Of a DNA stretch of 64,000 bases, positions 6,110 to 59,795 are shown one piece after another. The stretch covers positions 1 through 64,000 of IMG/VR virus record IMGVR_UViG_3300042691_055965. One strand, written 5' to 3'. The DNA comes from a virus. Position numbers and translations under genes: made by a program. Position 1 is the stretch's first letter, and the number at the start of each line of letters is the position of its first letter. The notes under the pieces are model-generated. The model saw nothing but the letters and a program-made list of their open reading frames with translations. It searched no databases and was not told the origin of the DNA.

Positions 6110-6664
6110 TTATTTTATAAAATCAACATGGACGTGATCAGTATGTGCTGATTTTCCTCCTGAAGTGTCATAATCATGCCATCCTTTTGGACTATTCCAT
6201 ATTTTATAATTATAAATCACATTTTTAACTTTAAGCTCACTCGCGTTGTCAACCAAGTAGTCAGCAAGTTTTTGCATAGTCGGATCTAAATCACCTCCTT
6301 TTGCGACATAATCCAATGCATTTCCATATGAATGTTCGGACTTTATTTTTGATCCAGCAACGTATCTATCTGCATAACCCCAAATGTTACTCCACTTTCC
6401 TTTAAATTGTGGTTGTGATAGTACATTATTTAAACAATCAACTGCCGGATCAGTCAAAGATTCTAAAGGTGGAAGTGGTTCGTCTTCCATACTTCCACCC
6501 ACTTTTATTTTTACTGGTTGATTACCTGAACGATAATCTATTGCATAATCATTTTTGAAAGGATCTGAAAGTTCTTTTCCGGTTTTTGGATCAACCGCAA
6601 ATTCAAACCCTTCAACAAGTTGTTCGTTGATAATGTCTCCTAATATCTTGACAAATTTCTTCAT
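6110..6664 (-). CDS. M15/extensin-like peptidase with capsid-targeting leader
   Basis: Protein of 184 aa. The C-terminal half carries the metal-site pattern of the VanY/M15-extensin-like group: SEHSYGNALDY (S-x-H-x2-G-x-A-x-D, about residues 114-124) and a C-terminal HTDHVHVDF with the H-x-H pair (about 174-182), preceded by GWHDYD. Such enzymes cut peptide cross-links in peptidoglycan. Residues 1-14 (MKKFVKILGDIINE) form a leader ending I-N-E before Q15. Inference: a virion-borne peptidoglycan peptidase that helps DNA entry, rather than the lysis enzyme, which is probably the GH19 protein at 13395. Confidence 0.7.
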   Translation of the reverse strand: MKKFVKILGDIINEQLVEGFEFAVDPKTGKELSDPFKNDYAIDYRSGNQPVKIKVGGSMEDEPLPPLESLTDPAVDCLNNVLSQPQFKGKWSNIWGYADRYVAGSKIKSEHSYGNALDYVAKGGDLDPTMQKLADYLVDNASELKVKNVIYNYKIWNSPKGWHDYDTSGGKSAHTDHVHVDFIK

Positions 6665-6774: not shown

Positions 6775-8985
6775 ATGAAGCTTTTAAACATAATTTTCTT
6801 TTTTTTAACCTTTGTTGGTTATTCACAGTTCTGTCCAAATTTAGGACCCGATCAATATCTTGCGTGTGGTGTTGGTTCGACTACACTAACTGCGGACTTT
6901 AGTCAATGTGCACCTGGCAGTAACCCAAATCAAACAACAAACTATGGTGTAACAAACATACCATACGTGGCACAAACAAATACAGGGACATCACTTATAA
7001 TGGCTGATGATTCACAACAAGGACCTTTTAATATAGGATTTACTTTTTGTTTTTTTGGACAAACCTATACACAATTTTATGTTGGTTCTAATGGGTGGGT
7101 TTCATTTTCACCAGCTCAACCAACAACATTCACATCAACAACAATCCCATCAGGATTAGGAACAGTCCCAAAGAACTGTATCATGGGTCCTTGGCAAGAT
7201 TGGCATCCTGGAGTTGGGGGACAGATTAGATACCAAGTTCAAGGAACCGCACCATGTAGAAAATTGGTTGTTAGTTGGATAAACGTACCAATGTTTTCTT
7301 GTACTAACTTGACAGGGACATTTCATATTGTAATTTATGAATCAACAAACATTATTGAAAATCATATTCAAAATAAACCTAATTGCTTAGCTTGGGCAGG
7401 AGGAACTGCCGTACAAGGATTACATAACAACAATGGAACATTCGCAGTAACTGTACCAGGTAGAAACTCAACCCAGTGGACTGCTAATAATGATGCAAGA
7501 AGATACACACCAAGTGGGCCTACAGTTATCCCAACACCAACATGGTATCAAGTAGGTAACCCAACACCTATTGGTGTTGGAACATCTATTACGGTAACAC
7601 CACCACAAGCTGGTGCAAATTATACTTGTCAGTTAGTTTATCCTGCTTGTAACGTAGGATGGAACACTTGTAATAATATACCAGGACAAACACCTGACAC
7701 TGTATTTGTACAACCAGGTCCACCAAACCTACAACCATTAAATGTTACTTTTACAAACCCAACTTGTTTTCAAAGTTGTGATGGAACAATCGATGTTACC
7801 CCATCTAACGGAGTTGCTCCTTTTACCTATGTGTGGAGTAATGGACAAGGTACACCAAACCTTATTGATTTATGTGAAGGAATATATGATGTAACAGTAA
7901 CTGACAATCAAGGATGTGATGTAACGGCATCTGTAACACTTACTGATCCTCCACAAGTTGTTATTAATCCGATTCAATCAATCGATACGATTTGTGATTA
8001 TTCATCAAGTGAATTATATTTTGTAAACGACAACGGAAATGGTTACACATATACTTGGACAACACTTGGAAGTATTATAAACGGTCAAGGTAATGATTCA
8101 ATTTACATAAATTGGGACGATAACCCAAGTGGATTTGTTCCCCAAGGTGTGAGTGTAATTGGAATAAATTCGGATGGATGTGAAAGTTTACCTCAAGATT
8201 TTGATTTATACATTTTGGATATAAATCCAACTATACAACAAATCGGACCTTTTTGTGATTATGATGATTGTGCTGATTTGATAGTAAATCCAATTGGTGG
8301 TAATCTATCAGGTTTAGGTGTCAATAATAATCAATTTTGCCCTGATGTGTCTTTGGTTGGTAATAATTCAATTACATATGAATATACTCAAACAAATTGT
8401 ACGTTTGATACTACAATAACTGTGGTTGTAAACCCACAACCAATTTTAGATGACATTAATCCTGATGATGAAATGGTGGAATTTTGTGAAGGTGATATTG
8501 TTAATAGAATATATAGTGTAGAATCCAATTTAAATGGTGGTACTTACTATTGGATTTTAAATGGTGATACAACAGAATCTTACAGTTTAGGACAAAGTTG
8601 GGTTACTAATGGTTACTATACAATACAAGTTTATCAGGTGGTAAATGGATGTGTTTCAGAAACCCAATCAACAACAGTTAATTTGACGACTTGTCCTGAA
8701 GAATTAATTTTTATACCGAATACTTTTACACCTGATGGTGACGAATATAACCAAACATGGTTACCAATATTTACCGAAGGGTTCGATCCGTATGATTATC
8801 AATTAACTATTTTAAATAGATGGGGTGAAGTTGTTTTCGAAAGCAATAACCATACAATTGGATGGTTGGGTGATTACAACGGAAAGGCTTGTACTGAAGG
8901 TGTTTATACTTGGAAAATTGAATTTGGAAATTTAATAAACGATGCTAGAAAAGTACTAGTTGGGCATTTAACACTTATACGATGA
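6775..8985 (+). CDS. Secreted SprB-like surface protein with type IX sorting domain
   Basis: Protein of 736 aa. Residues 1-18 are a signal peptide ending in GYSQ. A beta-rich, aromatic N-terminal domain follows (about 60-250). Around residues 325-395 is a SprB-type repeat (NPTCFQSCDGTIDVTPSNG, then YVWSNGQ and GIYDVTVTDNQGC). Further Ig-like beta domains follow. The last ~90 residues (about 645-736) match the gliding-motility-associated C-terminal domain: FIPNTFTPDGD, LTILNRWGEVVFES, GVYTWKIEF. In Bacteroidota this domain sends proteins through the type IX secretion system to the cell surface. So the protein is made to be displayed by the infected host, not built into the virion. A role in adhesion, cell aggregation or blocking superinfection is inference. 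Confidence 0.85.
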   Translation: MKLLNIIFFFLTFVGYSQFCPNLGPDQYLACGVGSTTLTADFSQCAPGSNPNQTTNYGVTNIPYVAQTNTGTSLIMADDSQQGPFNIGFTFCFFGQTYTQFYVGSNGWVSFSPAQPTTFTSTTIPSGLGTVPKNCIMGPWQDWHPGVGGQIRYQVQGTAPCRKLVVSWINVPMFSCTNLTGTFHIVIYESTNIIENHIQNKPNCLAWAGGTAVQGLHNNNGTFAVTVPGRNSTQWTANNDARRYTPSGPTVIPTPTWYQVGNPTPIGVGTSITVTPPQAGANYTCQLVYPACNVGWNTCNNIPGQTPDTVFVQPGPPNLQPLNVTFTNPTCFQSCDGTIDVTPSNGVAPFTYVWSNGQGTPNLIDLCEGIYDVTVTDNQGCDVTASVTLTDPPQVVINPIQSIDTICDYSSSELYFVNDNGNGYTYTWTTLGSIINGQGNDSIYINWDDNPSGFVPQGVSVIGINSDGCESLPQDFDLYILDINPTIQQIGPFCDYDDCADLIVNPIGGNLSGLGVNNNQFCPDVSLVGNNSITYEYTQTNCTFDTTITVVVNPQPILDDINPDDEMVEFCEGDIVNRIYSVESNLNGGTYYWILNGDTTESYSLGQSWVTNGYYTIQVYQVVNGCVSETQSTTVNLTTCPEELIFIPNTFTPDGDEYNQTWLPIFTEGFDPYDYQLTILNRWGEVVFESNNHTIGWLGDYNGKACTEGVYTWKIEFGNLINDARKVLVGHLTLIR

Positions 8986-9071: not shown

Positions 9072-9093
9072 ATAGTTTTAGAAAGATTTGTGA

Positions 9094-9104: not shown

Positions 9105-10865
9105 ATGACAAATCTTTCAAAAATTTCGTTGGTAATATCAGCCTTTCTGATGTTATTGTTCCTGTGTTCACAATCATTACTTGTTTTTCATTTTATTGAA
9201 TATGTAGATATGATAGGGTATTTTGGTTACGCCATAATACTAGCATTTATCCCATTTTTTTCTGTGTTTGCATATGAATATGTTAAAAGAAACAAAATAG
9301 GTAAGGTAAAAGGTGAATATATAAAAAAACTTAATGAAACAATAATTTCACAATCCCATAATCCATTATTTTATGATGGTGATATTTCTGAAGGAGCAAA
9401 AATTCTAACAAAAGAAGTGTCCACTAATATGGATGTTGATAGATGTTCTGTGTGGCTATACAATGAGGATAGAAGTTCAATTGTATGTCAACAACTATAT
9501 GTTAAATCAGAAAATAGTTGGTATCAGAATATTGAACTACATAAAAAAGATTATTTGGATTACTTCCTTGCTCTTTTGTTAAATCCCGTGATTGTTGCAA
9601 ATGATGCTGAAACTCACCAAGCAACTTCTTGTTTTACTGAATCGTATTTGAAACCTTTGGGTATTAAATCAATGTTGGATGTTCCAATTGTTTATAAGGG
9701 TGACACTATCGGGGTTATTTGTATTGAAAGTTTAGAACCAAAAATGTGGGACAAATGTGAAATTGATTTTGCTCAGATGTTAGCATCACTTTATTCCTTT
9801 TCATACTCCGTAAAAGAAATCAATCGTATAAACAAAACAATAGATGATATTGAGCATTTCATTGATTATTCGGTATTAGTAAGTAAGGCAGACGCAAATG
9901 GTAAAATAACATATGTTAATAAAAGGTTTGAGGATGTATCAGGATGGAAACTAAAACAAGCAATGGGTAAAGACCACAGTATTGTAAATTCAGGTTTTCA
10001 CCCAAAGGAGTTTTGGAAGGATATGTATAAGACAACCGTAAAAGATAGAAAGATATGGAATAAGGTTGTGACAAACAAAAATAGAAATGGTGAAATATAT
10101 TGGGTTGATTCTTATATCATCGCTGAGTTTGATTCTGAAACAGACAAACTAAAAGGATTTATGTCTATTAGATACGATGTAACTGACTTGATGAAAAAAT
10201 CAGAAGAGATTGAAAAAAAGAATACCTATTTGGAACACGCAGCAAAGATATTACGTCACGATATGCACTCAGGTATCAACACCTATATCCCAAGAGGAAT
10301 TAGTTCACTAGAAAGAAGATTAAATGATGATGTAATCAAGGAATTAAAAATTGAATCCCCACTTAAAATGATTAAGGAAGGATTAAAACATTCACAAAAA
10401 GTTTATAAGGGTGTTTATGAATTTACCAATTTGGTTAAAAAAGATTCAAGAATGGGTAAAACTGAATGTAACCTCAAAACTATCTTGGATGAATACCTAC
10501 AATCAACGGCATATAAAAGTCAGGTGATTATTGAGGAATTACCAGTCACTGATGTAAACGAATCTTTATTTTGCACAGCAATTGACAACCTAATCAGAAA
10601 TGGTTTGAAATATAACGATAGTGATACCAAGTTTGTTAAAATATTTATGGAAGAAGACACACTAATTCTACAGGACAATGGTAGAGGGATGACACAAAAA
10701 GATTTTGAATACTTATCCCAACCTTACACAAGAAAACAAAACCAAAAGGAAGGTGGAACGGGACTTGGATTAAACATATGTATCGCAATCTTAAATGAAC
10801 ACGGGTTCAAAATTACCTGTGAGAAAAACGATATTGGAACTAAAATGAAGATTAAACTTAAATGA
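9105..10865 (+). CDS. Hybrid-sensor-type histidine kinase: 2 TM, GAF, PAS, HATPase
   Basis: 586 aa from ATG 9105. Two N-terminal membrane helices (about residues 7-27 and 38-58), a GAF domain (about 90-230; DRCSVWLYNED, LDVPIVYKGDTIGVICIE), a PAS domain (about 245-365; ADANGKITYVNKRFEDVSGW, then a PAC-like MSIRYDVTD) and a kinase core. The phospho-accepting His is H385 in LRHDMHSGINTYIPRG. The ATPase has an N box (NLIRNGLKYN), G1 (DNGRGM) and G2 (GGTGLGLNI). All parts look intact. The stop overlaps the next start (ATGA), so it is coupled to a second kinase with a near-copy of the same core. The signal is unknown; GAF and PAS suggest sensing a small ligand or redox state inside the cell. Phage-encoded kinases of this sort are rare. 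Confidence 0.85.
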   Translation: MTNLSKISLVISAFLMLLFLCSQSLLVFHFIEYVDMIGYFGYAIILAFIPFFSVFAYEYVKRNKIGKVKGEYIKKLNETIISQSHNPLFYDGDISEGAKILTKEVSTNMDVDRCSVWLYNEDRSSIVCQQLYVKSENSWYQNIELHKKDYLDYFLALLLNPVIVANDAETHQATSCFTESYLKPLGIKSMLDVPIVYKGDTIGVICIESLEPKMWDKCEIDFAQMLASLYSFSYSVKEINRINKTIDDIEHFIDYSVLVSKADANGKITYVNKRFEDVSGWKLKQAMGKDHSIVNSGFHPKEFWKDMYKTTVKDRKIWNKVVTNKNRNGEIYWVDSYIIAEFDSETDKLKGFMSIRYDVTDLMKKSEEIEKKNTYLEHAAKILRHDMHSGINTYIPRGISSLERRLNDDVIKELKIESPLKMIKEGLKHSQKVYKGVYEFTNLVKKDSRMGKTECNLKTILDEYLQSTAYKSQVIIEELPVTDVNESLFCTAIDNLIRNGLKYNDSDTKFVKIFMEEDTLILQDNGRGMTQKDFEYLSQPYTRKQNQKEGGTGLGLNICIAILNEHGFKITCEKNDIGTKMKIKLK

Positions 10866-12277
10866 AAAAACTATTATTATTCTTAACAACTTTTATTTTT
10901 GTTGTGAATTCTTATTCACAATTAGAGGCGACTTGGGATCAAGGTGTTCCACTTTGTCCTGAAGACAAATACATTTCAGGTTTGATTGATAAGTTGGGGA
11001 ATAAAAATCTAACAGAACTTGATAGTTTAACTGATAACACAAACCTAAAACTTTTCAGAGAAATTGGTTTTGCGTTTTATGACAAAGGTATGTATGATGC
11101 TGCCGATTGGTATCTAAAAAGAGCAAAAAGATACAAAGAAAAAATTATTGTTGAAAAAACAAAAGACAAAGAAGAAACAAAACCAGAAATATCACAAGAA
11201 GATGCCAAACAAATGAAAAAAGATTTGGAGTTTTTAGGAGGTTTACCAAAATCATATGATAATTTATCAAAAGACGATATGTTGGAGTTGGCAAAAATGA
11301 TTAATAATAAAATTAATCAATTAACTAAAGAAAGGGATTCGATACTTAAAAGTGAAAAACCAAATGAAGAATTACTATCATCAAAAAATAACACAATCAA
11401 ATCATTAGAAAAAGAAAAAGAAGTAATTGATTTAACAATTGAAAGTGATGAATTAAAAGGCGAAACTAAAATATTAAACATAGAAAAGGCGACTTTGAAA
11501 AAGTATTTAACAGGATTAATAATTGGTGCATCAGTACTTATTTTATTCATCCTTGTACTTCTTCAAAGAAAAACAATTAGAGTTAAAGATACAGAAATAG
11601 ATAAACAACTAACCGATATCAATAAGAAAAACAAATACTTAGAATATTCAGCAAGAATCATAAGACACGATATGCACTCTGGTATCAATACTTACATTCC
11701 AAGAGGTATATCATCATTAGAAAAAAGAATCACCCAGGAAGATATTGAAAATCTTAAAATTGCTGCACCCATCAAAATGATTAAAGATGGTTTGAGTCAC
11801 ACACAAAAAGTTTACAAAAGAGTTTATGAATTCACAAACCTTGTAAAACAACAAGTGGTATTAGATAAAAAAGAAACGGACACAACAAAACTATTAACAG
11901 ATTACTTCCAATCCACTTCATATAAGAATCAAGTAGAGATTAGCGAATTAGTAATACTTGATATTAACGACACATTATTTTGTAACGCAATAGACAACTT
12001 AGTTAAAAACGGATTACAATATAACGATAGTGAAGACAAATTAGTTAAGATTTATATGGATAAAAATGACTTAATTGTGGAAGATAACGGTAGAGGGTTT
12101 ACACAAAAGGAATTAGAAACGATAACAGGGAAGTATTTAACTAAAAAGGGGGATTCTGAAATTGGTTTGGGATTAAGTATTAGTAAAACCATTTTAGAAG
12201 AACACGGATTTACAATGACTTGTGAAAAAATTAACAATGGAACTAAAATAAAAATTAAGACAAAAAAAGATGATTGA
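10862..12277 (+). CDS. Second histidine kinase with secreted-type N-terminus
   Basis: Protein of 471 aa. Residues 1-20 are a signal peptide ending in SYSQ. A periplasmic helical region (about 20-210) follows, with a TPR-like GFAFYDKGMYDAADWYLKRA and a coiled coil. One membrane helix lies at about 215-236 (GLIIGASVLILFILVLL). The core has H269 in IRHDMHSGINTYIPRG, N box NLVKNGLQYN, G1 DNGRGF and G2 GLGLSISKT. The H-box region is nearly the same as in the upstream kinase, so the pair arose by duplication of the core with exchange of the sensor. Periplasmic helical-repeat kinases are typical of Bacteroidota. It overlaps the receiver gene by 8 nt. Confidence 0.85.
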   Translation: MKKLLLFLTTFIFVVNSYSQLEATWDQGVPLCPEDKYISGLIDKLGNKNLTELDSLTDNTNLKLFREIGFAFYDKGMYDAADWYLKRAKRYKEKIIVEKTKDKEETKPEISQEDAKQMKKDLEFLGGLPKSYDNLSKDDMLELAKMINNKINQLTKERDSILKSEKPNEELLSSKNNTIKSLEKEKEVIDLTIESDELKGETKILNIEKATLKKYLTGLIIGASVLILFILVLLQRKTIRVKDTEIDKQLTDINKKNKYLEYSARIIRHDMHSGINTYIPRGISSLEKRITQEDIENLKIAAPIKMIKDGLSHTQKVYKRVYEFTNLVKQQVVLDKKETDTTKLLTDYFQSTSYKNQVEISELVILDINDTLFCNAIDNLVKNGLQYNDSEDKLVKIYMDKNDLIVEDNGRGFTQKELETITGKYLTKKGDSEIGLGLSISKTILEEHGFTMTCEKINNGTKIKIKTKKDD

Positions 12278-12707
12278 TTCTATTTTATTGGTTGATGACG
12301 AAGATTTATTTCATTTAGTATTTGAGGACGCTTGTTCTCTACTTGATATAAGTTTATCTCTACAATCTATTAGTAGTGCAGACGAAGCAGCAAAGATGTT
12401 TAAACAATGGTTTGACGATAAGAATACCAAAGATAAACCTGAATGTGTATTTGTTGATTTAAATATAATTGGTAGTTCTTTTGATGGAATTGAGCTTGTA
12501 AGAAGAATTAACTTTGAATATGGTAATCATGTTGTTATTGGAATTATTTCTTCATCAAACGAACCAGATGAACAAGCAAAGGCACTTCAATCAGGTGCAC
12601 AATTTTGGATTATCAAATCAGATGAAATCGAACCAAGATTGGAAGAATTTAAAAAAGATTATGAGGGGTATAAAACAAGAACCGCTCCTTTTAAAATTTA
12701 CAGATGA
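12270..12707 (+). CDS. Stand-alone response regulator receiver domain
   Basis: Protein of 145 aa made of a single receiver domain. The acidic pocket is DDED near residues 8-11 (LLVDDEDLF), the phospho-accepting Asp is D63 (VFVDLNIIG), the switch Ser/Thr is in GIISSSNEP (about 92-100), and the conserved Lys is in FWIIKSDE (about 111-118). There is no DNA-binding or enzymatic output domain, so it should act by protein contact, like CheY. It overlaps the kinase by 8 nt and the next gene by 4 nt. The likely partners are both kinases upstream and perhaps the coiled-coil membrane protein downstream. Confidence 0.85.
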   Translation: MIDSILLVDDEDLFHLVFEDACSLLDISLSLQSISSADEAAKMFKQWFDDKNTKDKPECVFVDLNIIGSSFDGIELVRRINFEYGNHVVIGIISSSNEPDEQAKALQSGAQFWIIKSDEIEPRLEEFKKDYEGYKTRTAPFKIYR

Positions 12708-13381
12708 TTAAAATAGATAAAAATACAAAGAAAACTTTATTAGAACTATACAAAAATAAAGGTATAGGACTTGAAGGTAATATCACAAAACTCATCGATG
12801 GTGAAGACGATGAAGACTTCAAAAAGTATTTAAAAGAATGTGAAACAAAAGATTCTGAAAAAAGACGAAAACGTCTTGAAATGACAAAAAAGATTCAAAA
12901 ACAAAATGAAGATTTAAAGTCATTGAACACTCAGAATCAACAAATACTTGAGGAACTTCAAACAACACTCAAAGAAGTTGAAGATTCCAAAATGACATTT
13001 GAGGTTCAAAACAGAGAACTTAACGAATGGAAACAAGATAACCTACGACTTACCGAAGAACTTAAAAACGAAATGGTAAAGTCAGAACAGGCAAGAATAG
13101 AAGCAGAAAAGGCAAAAGAAAGTGCAATTAACGATTTGGACATTATCCAAAAAAGAAATCAAACAGAACTTATATCAACAATTGTGAAAGTTGCTCTTTG
13201 GGTAATAATTGGTGTTGGTGTTGTTACAACTGGCGTCTATGTGTTTACTTTATTTATGGAAAAAGATACACAAGTTATAAGCGCTGCTTGGTCTAATATA
13301 TTTGGGATTTTGTTAACAAATGCTTTTTCAATAGTTGGAACAATAATGGGTATCAAATATGCCACAGAAAATAAACAATAA
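12704..13381 (+). CDS. Coiled-coil membrane protein, possible signalling output or holin
   Basis: Protein of 225 aa. Residues about 30-155 form a long, highly charged helical coiled coil (KRRKRLEMTKKIQKQNEDLK and similar heptads). Two membrane helices follow (about 160-187, VKVALWVIIGVGVVTTGVYV; and 195-220, IFGILLTNAFSIVGTIMG), with a short C-terminal tail. No family recognised. It is coupled to the receiver gene by a 4-nt overlap and ends 13 nt before the endolysin gene. This position is where a holin or its regulator is often found. Inference: it receives the signal from the receiver protein, or forms the membrane lesion for lysis. Neither is shown by sequence. Confidence 0.65.
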   Translation: MIKIDKNTKKTLLELYKNKGIGLEGNITKLIDGEDDEDFKKYLKECETKDSEKRRKRLEMTKKIQKQNEDLKSLNTQNQQILEELQTTLKEVEDSKMTFEVQNRELNEWKQDNLRLTEELKNEMVKSEQARIEAEKAKESAINDLDIIQKRNQTELISTIVKVALWVIIGVGVVTTGVYVFTLFMEKDTQVISAAWSNIFGILLTNAFSIVGTIMGIKYATENKQ

Positions 13382-13394
13382 ATAAATAATTAAA

Positions 13395-14216
13395 ATGTTA
13401 CTAAAAGTAGGTTCAAAAGGGGACGATGTAAAAAAACTACAAACCAAACTCGGTTTAACTGCCGATGGTTCATTCGGTCCAAACACAGAAAAGAAAGTTA
13501 AAGAATGGCAACAAGCAAATGGATTAACTGCCGATGGTATTGTTGGTTCAGGTACTTGGACAAAAATGTTTGGTGGTGAAGTGATAAAAGAAGATGTGGT
13601 AATTGCACCTGTTCAGGGATTAAACATCGAAAAACTAAAAGGGACAATTCCTGATGGTGTTATTGCACAAATTGCAGAAACCGCAAAGAAATTTAATATT
13701 ACAAACAATTTAAGACTTGCACACTTTTTAGCTCAATGTGCACACGAATCAGGTAGTTTTAAAGCGGTATCAGAAAATCTAAATTATTCCGTTGATGGGT
13801 TAAAAAAAGTATTTGGAAAGTACTTTCCTGGAAATCTTGCAGAATCTTACGCTAAACAACCTGAAAAGATTGCTTCCCGTGTTTACGGTGGAAGAATGGG
13901 TAATGGTGATGAATCAACAAAAGAAGGATTTAAATTCAGAGGAAGGGGATATATTCAATTGACAGGTAAATCAAACTACGTTAAATTTACACAATTCATC
14001 GGTGAAGATTGTGTGGCAAATCCTGATTTAGTTGCTACAAAATATCCGTTAGCATCCGCGGCGTTTTTCTTTAATAACAATAGTTTGTGGAGTATCTGTG
14101 ATAAAGGAGCTGACGATGCAACAGTAACCGCAGTCACCAAAAGAGTTAATGGAGGAACACATGGTTTGGCTGACAGAATTTCTAAATTCAAAACATATTA
14201 TAATTTATTGAAATAA
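13395..14216 (+). CDS. GH19 endolysin with N-terminal peptidoglycan-binding domain
   Basis: Protein of 273 aa. Residues about 1-62 are a PG_binding_1 domain (VGSKGDDVKKLQTKLGLTAD, DGIVGSGTW). Residues about 80-273 are a GH19 chitinase/lysozyme-like domain, with the catalytic Glu in LAQCAHESGSF and the conserved FKFRGRGYIQLTGKSNY. GH19 enzymes in phages cut the glycan of peptidoglycan. There is no signal peptide, so a holin is needed to release it. It begins 13 nt after the coiled-coil membrane protein and appears to be the last gene of the kinase operon. Confidence 0.9.
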   Translation: MLLKVGSKGDDVKKLQTKLGLTADGSFGPNTEKKVKEWQQANGLTADGIVGSGTWTKMFGGEVIKEDVVIAPVQGLNIEKLKGTIPDGVIAQIAETAKKFNITNNLRLAHFLAQCAHESGSFKAVSENLNYSVDGLKKVFGKYFPGNLAESYAKQPEKIASRVYGGRMGNGDESTKEGFKFRGRGYIQLTGKSNYVKFTQFIGEDCVANPDLVATKYPLASAAFFFNNNSLWSICDKGADDATVTAVTKRVNGGTHGLADRISKFKTYYNLLK

Positions 14217-45254: not shown

Positions 45255-45280
45255 TGGCGATAAGTACAAAACTTCCGGCG

Positions 45281-45697
45281 TGGAGGTGCGGAGAGTCGAA
45301 CTCCGGTCCATAACATCCTGTCAGATAAGGACTACACGTTTAGGTTAAGGTTTTTCATACCTTCCAAAATATTTGGTTCCTATTTTGACATTGTTACCAA
45401 CAACTGTGTCGAGTTCACTTTTGTTACGGTAGCACTCTGAACGAGACCGTTTGTTTCTTTTCGGGTAGAAACCACACCTTTGTAAAGACTTCTGTTGCTA
45501 GGTTATATGTCCACCGACCCCCCGTTTCCGTGCTTAACTTAAGCTACAGTAACTTCTTCAGTTGAAATTAAACCAACCACTGAAAGGTTTTCTAAAACGT
45601 CGCCATTTGCAACTTGAATCAGTTTTTAAGGAGATTAATTCAGTCCCCACGTGCCCTTATTCTTCAGCCAATGCCTGTCAAATCCAAAACCACCCCC
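45281..45697 (-). ncRNA. ssrA: tmRNA with unusual 23-codon tag
   Basis: Read on the minus strand, the 5' end is GGGGGTG followed by GTTTTGGATTTGACAGGC, the conserved 5' end of tmRNA. The 3' end has a T-arm (CGGAG, loop TTCGACT, CTCCG) and CACCTCC, which pairs with the 5' GGGGGTG to make a 7-bp acceptor stem, then a discriminator A. CCA is not encoded. Length is 417 nt. A resume codon region GCAAATGGCGAC resembles the usual GCAAACGACGAA. From GCA (45608-45610) to TAA (45539-45541) the frame encodes ANGDVLENLS, then VVGLIS, then TEEVTVA. Host tags end in -ALAA or similar; this one ends in -TVA. tmRNA rescues stalled ribosomes. No SmpB gene is seen here, so host SmpB would be needed. Confidence 0.9.
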
Positions 45698-47996: not shown

Positions 47997-50045
47997 TTAT
48001 TGTGTTTTTATTTTTCTTTTTGTTGGTTTTTTTATTTTAATATCTGTTTTATCTTCTTTTTGATTGTATGATAAAATAAACTTGGAATTTTTTTCTGGGT
48101 TATCAGAAAGGATTTTATCTGTTATATAATCGTCAACCCATTTCTGAACCGTTCTTTTTAAAATCCTTGCTCCAAACCTTGTATCAGTTCCAATTGAAAT
48201 AATATGTTTTTTCAAGGTATCGTCAACCTCAACATCAAATTCAATTTTTCTAACTCTTTCATATACTTTTTCCAATTCCAAATCAATAATTTCCATCAAG
48301 TTATCTTCATCCAAATCTTTGAAATAAACAATATCATCAAATCTATTTATAAATTCTGGAACAAATCTTTTGAAAAGTTCTTTTTCCAACACTGATTTTA
48401 TTTCTTCTTCTTTTTGTTCAATTTTTGTTGCCGTCGAAAATCCTACACCTGTTCCAAATTGTTGAACGGCTCTTGTTCCAACATTTGATGTCATCAATAT
48501 AATACAATTTTTGAAATTGATTTTTCTTCCATGTCCATCGGTTAAAAATCCTTCATCGAGCATTTGCAAAAACACATTGAAGATTTCAGGGTGGGCTTTT
48601 TCAATTTCATCAAGTAAAATAACAGAATATGGTTTGTTTTTAATTTTATTCAAAAAAGGAGAACCATCATCATATCCAACATAACCTGGCGATGTTCCTG
48701 TTAATTTTGATGTTGATATTTTATCTGAAAATTCGCTCATGTCAAGTCTGATAAGAGCATCTTCTGAATTGAACATATGTTTTGCAAGTTGTTTTGCAAG
48801 TTCCGTTTTTCCAACACCGGAATTACCAATTAAAAGTCCACTGAATATCGGTCTTTTTGGATCGTTCAAACCAACTTTATTTCTTTGGATAGCTCTTGCA
48901 ATTTTTGCAATTGCATCATCTTGTCCAATAACCTTTTTATTAAGTGTGTCCTTTAATGTTTTAAGTTGTTCTGATTCATCAGTTGTGATTTTATTGATTG
49001 GAATTTTTGTCATAAGTGACACAACATCATAAACAATATCTTCTGTTACTTCTCTTTTGAAAAGGTTTCTATTTTTTTCAAATTCATCTTTTTCCTTTTC
49101 AAGCTCAAGAAGTATTTTTCTTTCTTTATCTCTTAAATTTGCTGCTTCTTCGTACTTTTGACTATTAATAACTCGAATTTTTTCCTTTTTAATGTCTTCT
49201 GCCTTTTTTTTCAAATCTTCGATAATTTCAGGTAATTTGATTTCAACTTGCGACCTGGCACCAACCTCATCGATTATATCAAACGCCTTGTCAGGAAATT
49301 CTCTATCTGTGATGTAACGATCAGCCAATTCAACACAAAGTTTTAATATGTCATCACTGTACTTTACCTTATGATAATCTTCATACCTTTCTTTTGTATT
49401 ATACAAGATTTCAAGTGTTTCTTCTTTTGTTGACGGATCTACCATTACCTTTTGAAACCTCCTTTCAAGTGCTCCGTCCTTTTCAATGTTTTTTCTATAT
49501 TCTTCAAGTGTTGTTGCTCCAATACATTGTAATTCACCACGGGACAGGGCTGGTTTGAAAATATTTGATGCATCCATTGTACCTGATGCGTTTCCTGCAC
49601 CAATCATTGTATGAATTTCATCGATGAAAATAATAATGTCAGGATTTGCATAAAGTTCTTCCATTATAACTTTCATTCTTTCTTCAAATTGTCCTCTGTA
49701 TTTTGTTCCTGCAACAACAGATGTCATGTCTAATGAAACAATTCTTTTATTTGCCAAATTTTGGGGACAATCACCTTCGAATATTTTCTTTGCAAGTCCT
49801 TCAATAATTGCTGTTTTTCCACAACCAGGTTCACCAAGAACGATTGGGTTGTTCTTTTTTCTTCTTGATAAAATCTGTGCAATTCTATTGATTTCGTTTT
49901 CTCTCCCAACAATCGGGTCTAGTTTTCCTTCTTCTGCTAGTAATATTAAATCTCTTGAAAAATTATCCAAAACGGGGGTTTTTGACGAACCTGTTGATTG
50001 TGATTTGTTTTTGGATTTTTCGTTGCTATCTGCTGAATCAATCAT
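47997..50045 (-). CDS. ClpC/ClpA-type AAA+ unfoldase without N-domain
   Basis: Protein of 682 aa with two AAA+ modules. D1: Walker A GEPGCGKT, Walker B IIIFIDEI, and GALERRF arginine finger. A middle domain has a UVR-like helix (SQKYEEAANLRDKERK), as in ClpC. D2: Walker A GNSGVGKT, Walker B VILLDEI, and RFGARILKR. In D2 the motif VGF (GTGVGFST) sits where ClpP-binding loops lie in ClpC/ClpA, so it could dock on host ClpP. The normal ~150-residue N-domain, used for adaptors, is missing; instead there is a short Ser/Lys-rich tail of about 25 residues. No protease subunit is encoded nearby. Co-oriented with the M20 peptidase and the tmRNA. Confidence 0.9.
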   Translation of the reverse strand: MIDSADSNEKSKNKSQSTGSSKTPVLDNFSRDLILLAEEGKLDPIVGRENEINRIAQILSRRKKNNPIVLGEPGCGKTAIIEGLAKKIFEGDCPQNLANKRIVSLDMTSVVAGTKYRGQFEERMKVIMEELYANPDIIIFIDEIHTMIGAGNASGTMDASNIFKPALSRGELQCIGATTLEEYRKNIEKDGALERRFQKVMVDPSTKEETLEILYNTKERYEDYHKVKYSDDILKLCVELADRYITDREFPDKAFDIIDEVGARSQVEIKLPEIIEDLKKKAEDIKKEKIRVINSQKYEEAANLRDKERKILLELEKEKDEFEKNRNLFKREVTEDIVYDVVSLMTKIPINKITTDESEQLKTLKDTLNKKVIGQDDAIAKIARAIQRNKVGLNDPKRPIFSGLLIGNSGVGKTELAKQLAKHMFNSEDALIRLDMSEFSDKISTSKLTGTSPGYVGYDDGSPFLNKIKNKPYSVILLDEIEKAHPEIFNVFLQMLDEGFLTDGHGRKINFKNCIILMTSNVGTRAVQQFGTGVGFSTATKIEQKEEEIKSVLEKELFKRFVPEFINRFDDIVYFKDLDEDNLMEIIDLELEKVYERVRKIEFDVEVDDTLKKHIISIGTDTRFGARILKRTVQKWVDDYITDKILSDNPEKNSKFILSYNQKEDKTDIKIKKPTKRKIKTQ

Positions 50046-58827: not shown

Positions 58828-59556
58828 ATGAATACTTTTGGAAATATTAAATCAAAAATAGAAAAAGCATCAATTGAATTGTATGGGAAACCTCAATTCA
58901 AAATGTTTATGAATCAATTTAAATCTGTGGTTTTAGAAAACAAAGATTTATCTGAATTGTATTTCATTTATGATGATTTGTCCACAAATAAAAACTTACC
59001 GAACGACATTGCTGATGATTATATCAATGAATCAATAGAATATGCTCAAATATTGATTGAAAACAATGACGAAGAACTTGGTATGGTAAACTATTGGATT
59101 AGTAATATCGTAAAAAAAGATTCAAACAACTATAATGATATTGATACTATCATTTACAACAATAGTATCAAAAATTTAGAAACAGTTTTAGAATCTAAAA
59201 AAAATATCAAAAAAATTATTACTGAAAGTAAAAAAGAAAAAGAAATCGAAAAAATAAATGTTCCAATTAGTTCAATGGTTAAAATTGCAAATTCAACTTT
59301 AACTAATCGTTTTTCTAATTTAAGTGAACAAGAAAGAAAAGAATTAAATTCAATCGTAAAATTATCGACAAAAGAAATAAAAAAAGAAATGGACAACTTG
59401 AAAGAACAAGCAATTTCAAAATTAAAAATGAGTTTGAATGAGTCCAAAGATACTGAACTTACAAAGGCAGTTAATGATACAATACAAAAAATAAAAGAGT
59501 CGAAATACGATTATTATAATTTATATAAACTAAGAAATTTAAATGCGGGATTATGA
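58828..59556 (+). CDS. Helical head-module protein, 242 aa
   Basis: Mostly helical, Lys/Glu/Asn-rich protein with no recognised domain, between portal and protease, where T4 has small core proteins (gp67, gp68). A Y-I-N-E-S site lies near residue 70. Ends in a 4-nt overlap with the small membrane protein. A core or scaffold helper role is inferred from position. Confidence 0.5.
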   Translation: MNTFGNIKSKIEKASIELYGKPQFKMFMNQFKSVVLENKDLSELYFIYDDLSTNKNLPNDIADDYINESIEYAQILIENNDEELGMVNYWISNIVKKDSNNYNDIDTIIYNNSIKNLETVLESKKNIKKIITESKKEKEIEKINVPISSMVKIANSTLTNRFSNLSEQERKELNSIVKLSTKEIKKEMDNLKEQAISKLKMSLNESKDTELTKAVNDTIQKIKESKYDYYNLYKLRNLNAGL

Positions 59557-59795
59557 AAAATTTTATAGTAAAACTATTGAGTGATGAATCAGGTAGTATT
59601 TCATCAAAAAGATTATCAGGATTGATTTGTGTATTATTTTTAAATGTTACACTTCTTGCTAATTCATTTTCACATGGTGAAATTGCACCATCAGATATGC
59701 TAGTTGAAACTGTTGGGTTACTAGCGTTTGGTACATTAGGTTTAACTTCTACTGAAAGAATTTTTGGGAAAAGGGATTCAAAAAAGAGCGAATAA
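59553..59795 (+). CDS. Small two-span membrane protein, holin-like
   Basis: Protein of 80 aa with two hydrophobic spans (about 22-40, LSGLICVLFLNVTLLANSF; about 51-67, VETVGLLAFGTLGLTS) and a charged C-terminus (KRDSKKSE). Short paired spans with a basic tail are seen in holins, and similar small proteins occur in Bacteroidota phages. It is far from the endolysin, so a second holin or a head-related membrane role are both possible. Confidence 0.55.
   Translation: MKNFIVKLLSDESGSISSKRLSGLICVLFLNVTLLANSFSHGEIAPSDMLVETVGLLAFGTLGLTSTERIFGKRDSKKSE

Follow-up and report, generated by a model that had tools for sequence, protein, structure and literature searches.

The window analysed here is the first 64,000 nucleotides (nt) of IMG/VR record IMGVR_UViG_3300042691_055965, a 229-kb tailed-phage record. 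Between positions 9105 and 14216 it encodes a two-component system followed by a membrane protein and an endolysin. Five intact open reading frames (ORFs) lie consecutively on the + strand:

9105 (ATG; alternative start GTG at 9090) to 10865, + strand: HK-A (HK1), a histidine kinase, assigned by Pfam and PDB matches and hydropathy
10862 to 12277, + strand: HK-B (HK2), a second histidine kinase, assigned by Pfam, matches to PDB sensor kinases, hydropathy and its separate clade in the kinase tree
12270 to 12707, + strand: REC, a stand-alone receiver of 145 residues (Pfam Response_reg, 3e-9), with the codon for D63 at 12456-12458
12704 to 13381, + strand: CC2TM, a coiled-coil two-span membrane protein, assigned by AlphaFold2 (AF2) model, hydropathy and column conservation
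13395 to 14216, + strand: GH19 endolysin with an N-terminal PG_binding_1 domain, assigned by Pfam and phrog_181

The ORF coordinates give overlaps of 4, 8 and 4 nt at the first three junctions and a 13-nt gap at the last, exactly as in a preliminary description of this DNA. Scans for promoters and terminators gave signals no better than those in shuffled sequences.

Both kinases contain a phospho-acceptor histidine, N and G boxes and an HATPase fold. HK-A consists of hydrophobic N-terminal spans, a GAF domain (Pfam, 6e-16), a PAS domain of MmoS/Aer type (2e-5), a divergent HisKA region and HATPase_c (2e-13), as judged from Pfam, PDB matches and hydropathy. Its H-box, RHDMHSGI, includes the phospho-acceptor H385 and gave no match to Pfam HisKA. 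HK-B matched HATPase_c at 4e-13, and its phospho-acceptor region, around H269, could be aligned to solved kinases in the PDB. The kinase core matched sensor-kinase entries such as 3dge/2c2a (3e-7), the nearest solved kinase being HK853 of Thermotoga. An HDMH box was present in all kinase ORFs longer than 330 residues; 136 of 166 had N/G1/G2 patterns. The cores of HK-A and HK-B, previously described as nearly the same, share only 57% identity over 232 residues and belong to two old paralogous clades, with support of 100/99 for the HK-B clade in the kinase tree. The apparently single kinases in that clade belong to loci truncated on the upstream side.

No receiver other than REC was found in the 229-kb record, and REC carries neither a DNA-binding nor an enzymatic output domain. 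It has the acidic pair (D9 and D10), acceptor aspartate (D63), serine (S94/S95) and lysine (K116) of a two-component receiver, and these residues were invariant in 51 of 51 distinct relatives. The preliminary statement that the catalytic motifs are intact is thus borne out for kinases and receiver alike. Phosphotransfer from kinase to D63 is predicted, and is backed by the conserved adjacency of the genes.

Relatives of the receiver were encoded on at least 589 viral contigs in a receiver scan, and relatives of CC2TM on at least 496 in a profile search based on the 12704 protein. A kinase followed by a receiver and then CC2TM recurred across 157 loci. Removal of near-copies (at least 99% identity in CC2TM) and a requirement for full flanks left 45 non-redundant loci; these are related by descent, and counts of their neighbouring genes are not independent events. 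The whole triad was present in all 45, a recurrence of gene order far beyond chance. HK-A occurs in each of these loci. One kinase was encoded in 35 loci, and the two kinases reported for the window were found in only 10; where there is a second kinase, HK-B, it is always the one adjoining the receiver. Of 78 loci, 72 had a 4-nt overlap between the REC stop and the CC2TM start, and five had an overlap of 1 nt. The conserved unit is a histidine kinase, a lone receiver and CC2TM, narrower than the five genes first proposed.

No match was obtained when the receiver, CC2TM and the kinase core were searched by tblastn against 50,697 phage records, and no cultured relatives were found. Among 84,980 bacterial and archaeal species, CC2TM relatives occurred in two. 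One of these loci (L156) lies amid phage-like genes; the other (L157) is on a contig of a Bacteroidota metagenome-assembled genome (MAG) and encodes a kinase, a receiver and then a 349-residue protein. A second chromosome (L163) carries a kinase and a receiver, 69% identical to that of L157, without CC2TM. Among 147 genomes related to that of L157, two encoded REC; 396 genomes spread over the Bacteroidota phylum yielded no further one. The triad is almost exclusive to phages and almost absent from bacterial genomes. When a bacterial origin was considered, L157 and L163 were the only chromosomal Bacteroidota loci found, and both fall among the HK-A branches of the tree.

These chromosomal homologues, together with the extreme conservation of the receiver, are what might be expected if the module intercepted host signalling by exchanging phosphate with host two-component partners, with CC2TM merely anchoring or sequestering the receiver at the membrane. 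Such homologues are, however, very rare in Bacteroidota, and every phage locus retains its own, self-contained pair of kinase and receiver. We regard interception as very improbable.

The AF2 model of CC2TM (mean predicted local distance difference test score 84, predicted template modelling score 0.33) comprises an N-terminal domain (residues 1-36), a continuous helix or coiled coil (37-185) and a C-terminal hairpin. Hydropathy and the model place the two transmembrane (TM) spans at about 158-185 and 196-220. The second span, which contains G212xxxG216, is the most conserved region of the protein, with a mean column identity of 0.94 compared with 0.60 for the coiled coil, which varies in both sequence and length. 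CC2TM matched a PHROG family without assigned function and no Pfam family significantly. A Foldseek search against viral models returned a single significant match, to a phage protein of 54% identity that is itself uncharacterised; the other matches were to generic helices. Membership of a known holin family was rejected, as the best Pfam holin match, Phage_holin_9, had an E-value of 0.42, far under its cut-off.

The L157 locus bears on the function of this protein. The first 76 residues of its 349-residue product align with CC2TM (39% identity to the protein of the window), after which HisKA and HATPase domains replace the hairpin. Because the same N-terminal domain is here joined to a kinase instead of the hairpin, this arrangement suggests that CC2TM is the output of the receiver; the N-terminal domain would be the adaptor and the hairpin the effector. 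No other sequence evidence for CC2TM as the output is as strong. Together with the invariant synteny, it upholds the preliminary proposal that the phage encodes a complete pathway from sensor to receiver and that this receiver is linked to a two-span membrane protein.

We then considered the neighbourhood of the triad. The protein encoded at 13395 has the features of a phage GH19 endolysin, with a peptidoglycan-binding domain (PG_binding_1, 3e-14), a GH19 domain (2e-9), a match to the phrog_181 endolysins (2e-66) and no signal or TM segment. GH19 genes were found from 6 kb upstream to 3 kb downstream of CC2TM in 32 of the 45 loci, and the next most frequent non-triad family in 17. Their position varied: 13 loci had the gene directly downstream and five further downstream; in another 13 it was divergent and just upstream, and in the remaining 14 it lay elsewhere or was not found, part of these having GH19 about 12-27 kb away. 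No GH19 gene was found in three related triad contigs of 170-226 kb; the relay can therefore exist without a GH19 endolysin. The 45 contexts and the contigs lacking GH19 led us to reject an endolysin operon as the conserved unit. Of the original description of a system built into a lysis operon, the lysis-gene neighbourhood thus stands and the conserved operon does not, the endolysin being co-directional with and adjacent to the triad in only the 13 loci with a direct arrangement.

Other lysis genes also occur nearby. In relatives, a gene divergent to the kinase (fam17) matched an endolysin PHROG at 3e-9, and in several relatives the gene directly after GH19 (fam32) encodes Phage_holin_10 (2e-17). 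Altogether, a lysin or holin-like gene was near the triad in 36 of the 45 loci.

CC2TM might itself be the holin, a class-II-like hairpin whose hole formation is gated directly by the receiver. It has two TM spans, within the one to three usual for holins, it lies in the window immediately 5′ of an endolysin without a signal sequence, and no Phage_holin_10 was found in the window's own record. A 120-residue coiled coil precedes the hairpin, however, and to our knowledge described holins have nothing comparable. The window phage also carries a further small membrane protein:

59553 to 59795, + strand: small membrane protein of 80 residues, a possible separate holin candidate, assigned by hydropathy and a family-40 relative

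This protein, which is 44% identical to the family-40 protein of L049, has relatives near the triad in some loci and matched neither Pfam nor PHROG families. Because some relatives have a recognised holin after GH19 in addition to CC2TM, it is unlikely that CC2TM is simply the holin. Given also the lack of a holin-family match, we judge a CC2TM holin improbable.

A different possibility is that the relay is as described and CC2TM has an output other than lysis, such as superinfection exclusion, control of the proton-motive force, transport or injection shut-off, the lysins being neighbours through shared late expression. The gene after CC2TM is on the opposite strand in 20 of the 45 loci, and the unit therefore ends with CC2TM. 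The triad contigs without GH19 point the same way, as does the second TM span, whose conservation is unusually high for a holin; holins vary freely in sequence. Set against this are the persistence of GH19 near the triad through several arrangements and the frequency of lysin or holin-like neighbours. On balance, an output unrelated to lysis seems rather unlikely.

As to the signal, the PAS domains of MmoS, Aer and NifL bind FAD. The HK-A PAS domain matched the solved structures of all three, most closely MmoS (3EWK, 2e-21), then Aer (8DIK, 5e-16) and NifL (2GJ3, 2e-7), and so resembles FAD-binding PAS sensors in sequence. Because of these matches, the redox or energy/respiratory state of the cell is a plausible signal for HK-A. 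The number of GAF and PAS domains varies among the HK-A sensors of relatives. HK-B has a signal-peptide-like start, a region of about 190 residues and one strong TM segment (216-234); from this hydropathy-based topology it is therefore probably periplasm-sensing. Cell state and phage density had both been suggested as signals; the first is favoured in part by the PAS matches, and nothing was found for the second. In 29 loci a gene for a secreted coiled-coil protein (family 19, e.g. L155:1572-2189), not present in the window, lies between the two kinase genes with small overlaps. Its product may be a periplasmic partner of HK-B.

Several further features of the window and its relatives were recorded. 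A 736-residue protein encoded at 6775-8985 contains an SprB repeat together with a type IX secretion sorting domain, CHU_C (Pfam), which points to a Bacteroidota host; its relatives flank the triad in 20 loci. A conserved 200-residue protein with an N-terminal TM segment (family 20, e.g. L098:11462-12079; 28 loci) is often encoded towards the GH19 end of the module, and had only weak PHROG matches, no assigned function and no Pfam match. Downstream of the triad in many relatives (L006, L062 and others) are families 9, 11 and 22, which by inspection of their sequences are DnaK-like, FKBP-like isomerase and aspartate/asparagine-tRNA-ligase-like. A possible M15/extensin-like peptidoglycan peptidase motif, EHSYGNALDY...HVDF, is encoded at 6110-6664 (- strand), with a non-significant Pfam match (0.12). 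The window also encodes a phage transfer-messenger RNA at 45280-45697 (- strand; tag EKKQTVSFRVLP) and a ClpA-like ATPase at 47997-50045 (- strand; phrog_4871, 3e-222), and portal and terminase genes lie at 55-59 kb of the record. Finally, otherwise unrelated proteins share N-terminal tags of two types, MKRIIRLTESDLARIVRRVI.E and LxEIxRIxxLMxLxE/...GKxxxEQ, which are perhaps a targeting or prohead-cleavage signal. They are encoded at the following positions of the window:

4283, 50164, 50713, 61583, 19452, 19872 and 22139: tagged proteins
5040 and 15142, - strand: tagged proteins

Taken together, the data on the triad favour the following scheme. HK-A would sense the infected cell through its cytoplasmic GAF and PAS domains, probably responding to the redox or energy status of that cell; HK-B, where present, would sense through its periplasmic region. 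One or both kinases would phosphorylate the single receiver at D63, and phosphorylated REC would bind the N-terminal domain of CC2TM. The signal would then travel along the long coiled coil to the conserved TM hairpin, altering how the hairpin packs or how it affects the inner membrane. In this way the module would hold or release lysis according to the state of the cell, with CC2TM acting as a holin regulator or as an accessory gated membrane lesion. Lysis is the likeliest purpose because the module adjoins lysins (GH19, and the endolysin-like divergent gene in relatives) and sometimes a recognised holin.

We consider it likely that the module is a phage phosphorelay with an effector in the membrane. 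That its purpose is the control of lysis by cell state is, in our estimation, an evenly balanced proposition; here we infer the identity of the signal, the effect on lysis and the control of its timing. The fullest version, in which the phosphorylated receiver directly drives the TM hairpin through a modular coiled-coil adaptor, so that lysis is timed post-translationally by host redox or energy and envelope state in a widespread, almost phage-exclusive system, is put forward tentatively. Several points weigh against the scheme. The exchange of output behind the adaptor is known from the single MAG locus, and contact between REC and CC2TM is a prediction from sequence. In many loci GH19 is transcribed as a unit of its own, and the three large contigs lack it; CC2TM matches no holin family significantly, and some relatives encode a recognised holin separately.

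The module resembles bacterial two-component systems in its kinase domains, H-box, N and G boxes and canonical receiver triad. It differs in being phage-encoded, in its divergent H-box, in a receiver without DNA-binding output and in the membrane protein that always follows it. In T4 lysis inhibition (RI/RIII/T holin) the timing of lysis is adjusted to the condition of the infected cell without a phosphorelay; the adjustment proposed here is alike, and no homologous parts were found. In the staphylococcal LytSR-LrgAB/CidAB system, two-component signalling is linked to murein hydrolases and to membrane proteins resembling holins, and LytR acts on transcription. LytSR-LrgAB is the nearest functional parallel, with the difference that the phage receiver lacks a DNA-binding domain and probably acts on the membrane protein encoded next to it. 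LytSR regulates autolysis (PMC2996381). The cREC proteins of jumbo phages are likewise receiver-fold proteins of large phages; according to their description they are never found with histidine kinases and are linked to NAD/ADP-ribose enzymes (Iyer et al. 2021, PMC7824862). REC, in contrast, is a conventional receiver with a kinase beside it in every full-context locus, and does not belong with them. The lysis cassettes with Phage_holin_10 (Pam3 gp28) and GH19, and the endolysin-holin pair of Flavobacterium phage immuto, share with several relatives a GH19 endolysin followed directly by a holin, but have no kinase, receiver or CC2TM.

In our partial coverage of the literature we found no paper describing a phage kinase-receiver module, with or without lysis genes, and it appears that no full pathway from kinase to receiver with its own output has been described in phages. 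Hundreds of contigs carry such a pathway, and none of the phage records searched does. The output exchange at L157 would define a modular, receiver-driven coiled-coil effector. The presence of this relay in hundreds of large uncultured phages, usually beside lysis genes, suggests that these viruses monitor the condition of the host cell before they act on its membrane. If the receiver does control the hairpin, this would be a new viral way of coupling host physiology to a membrane event, and would offer a testable answer to the question of how large phages time lysis.

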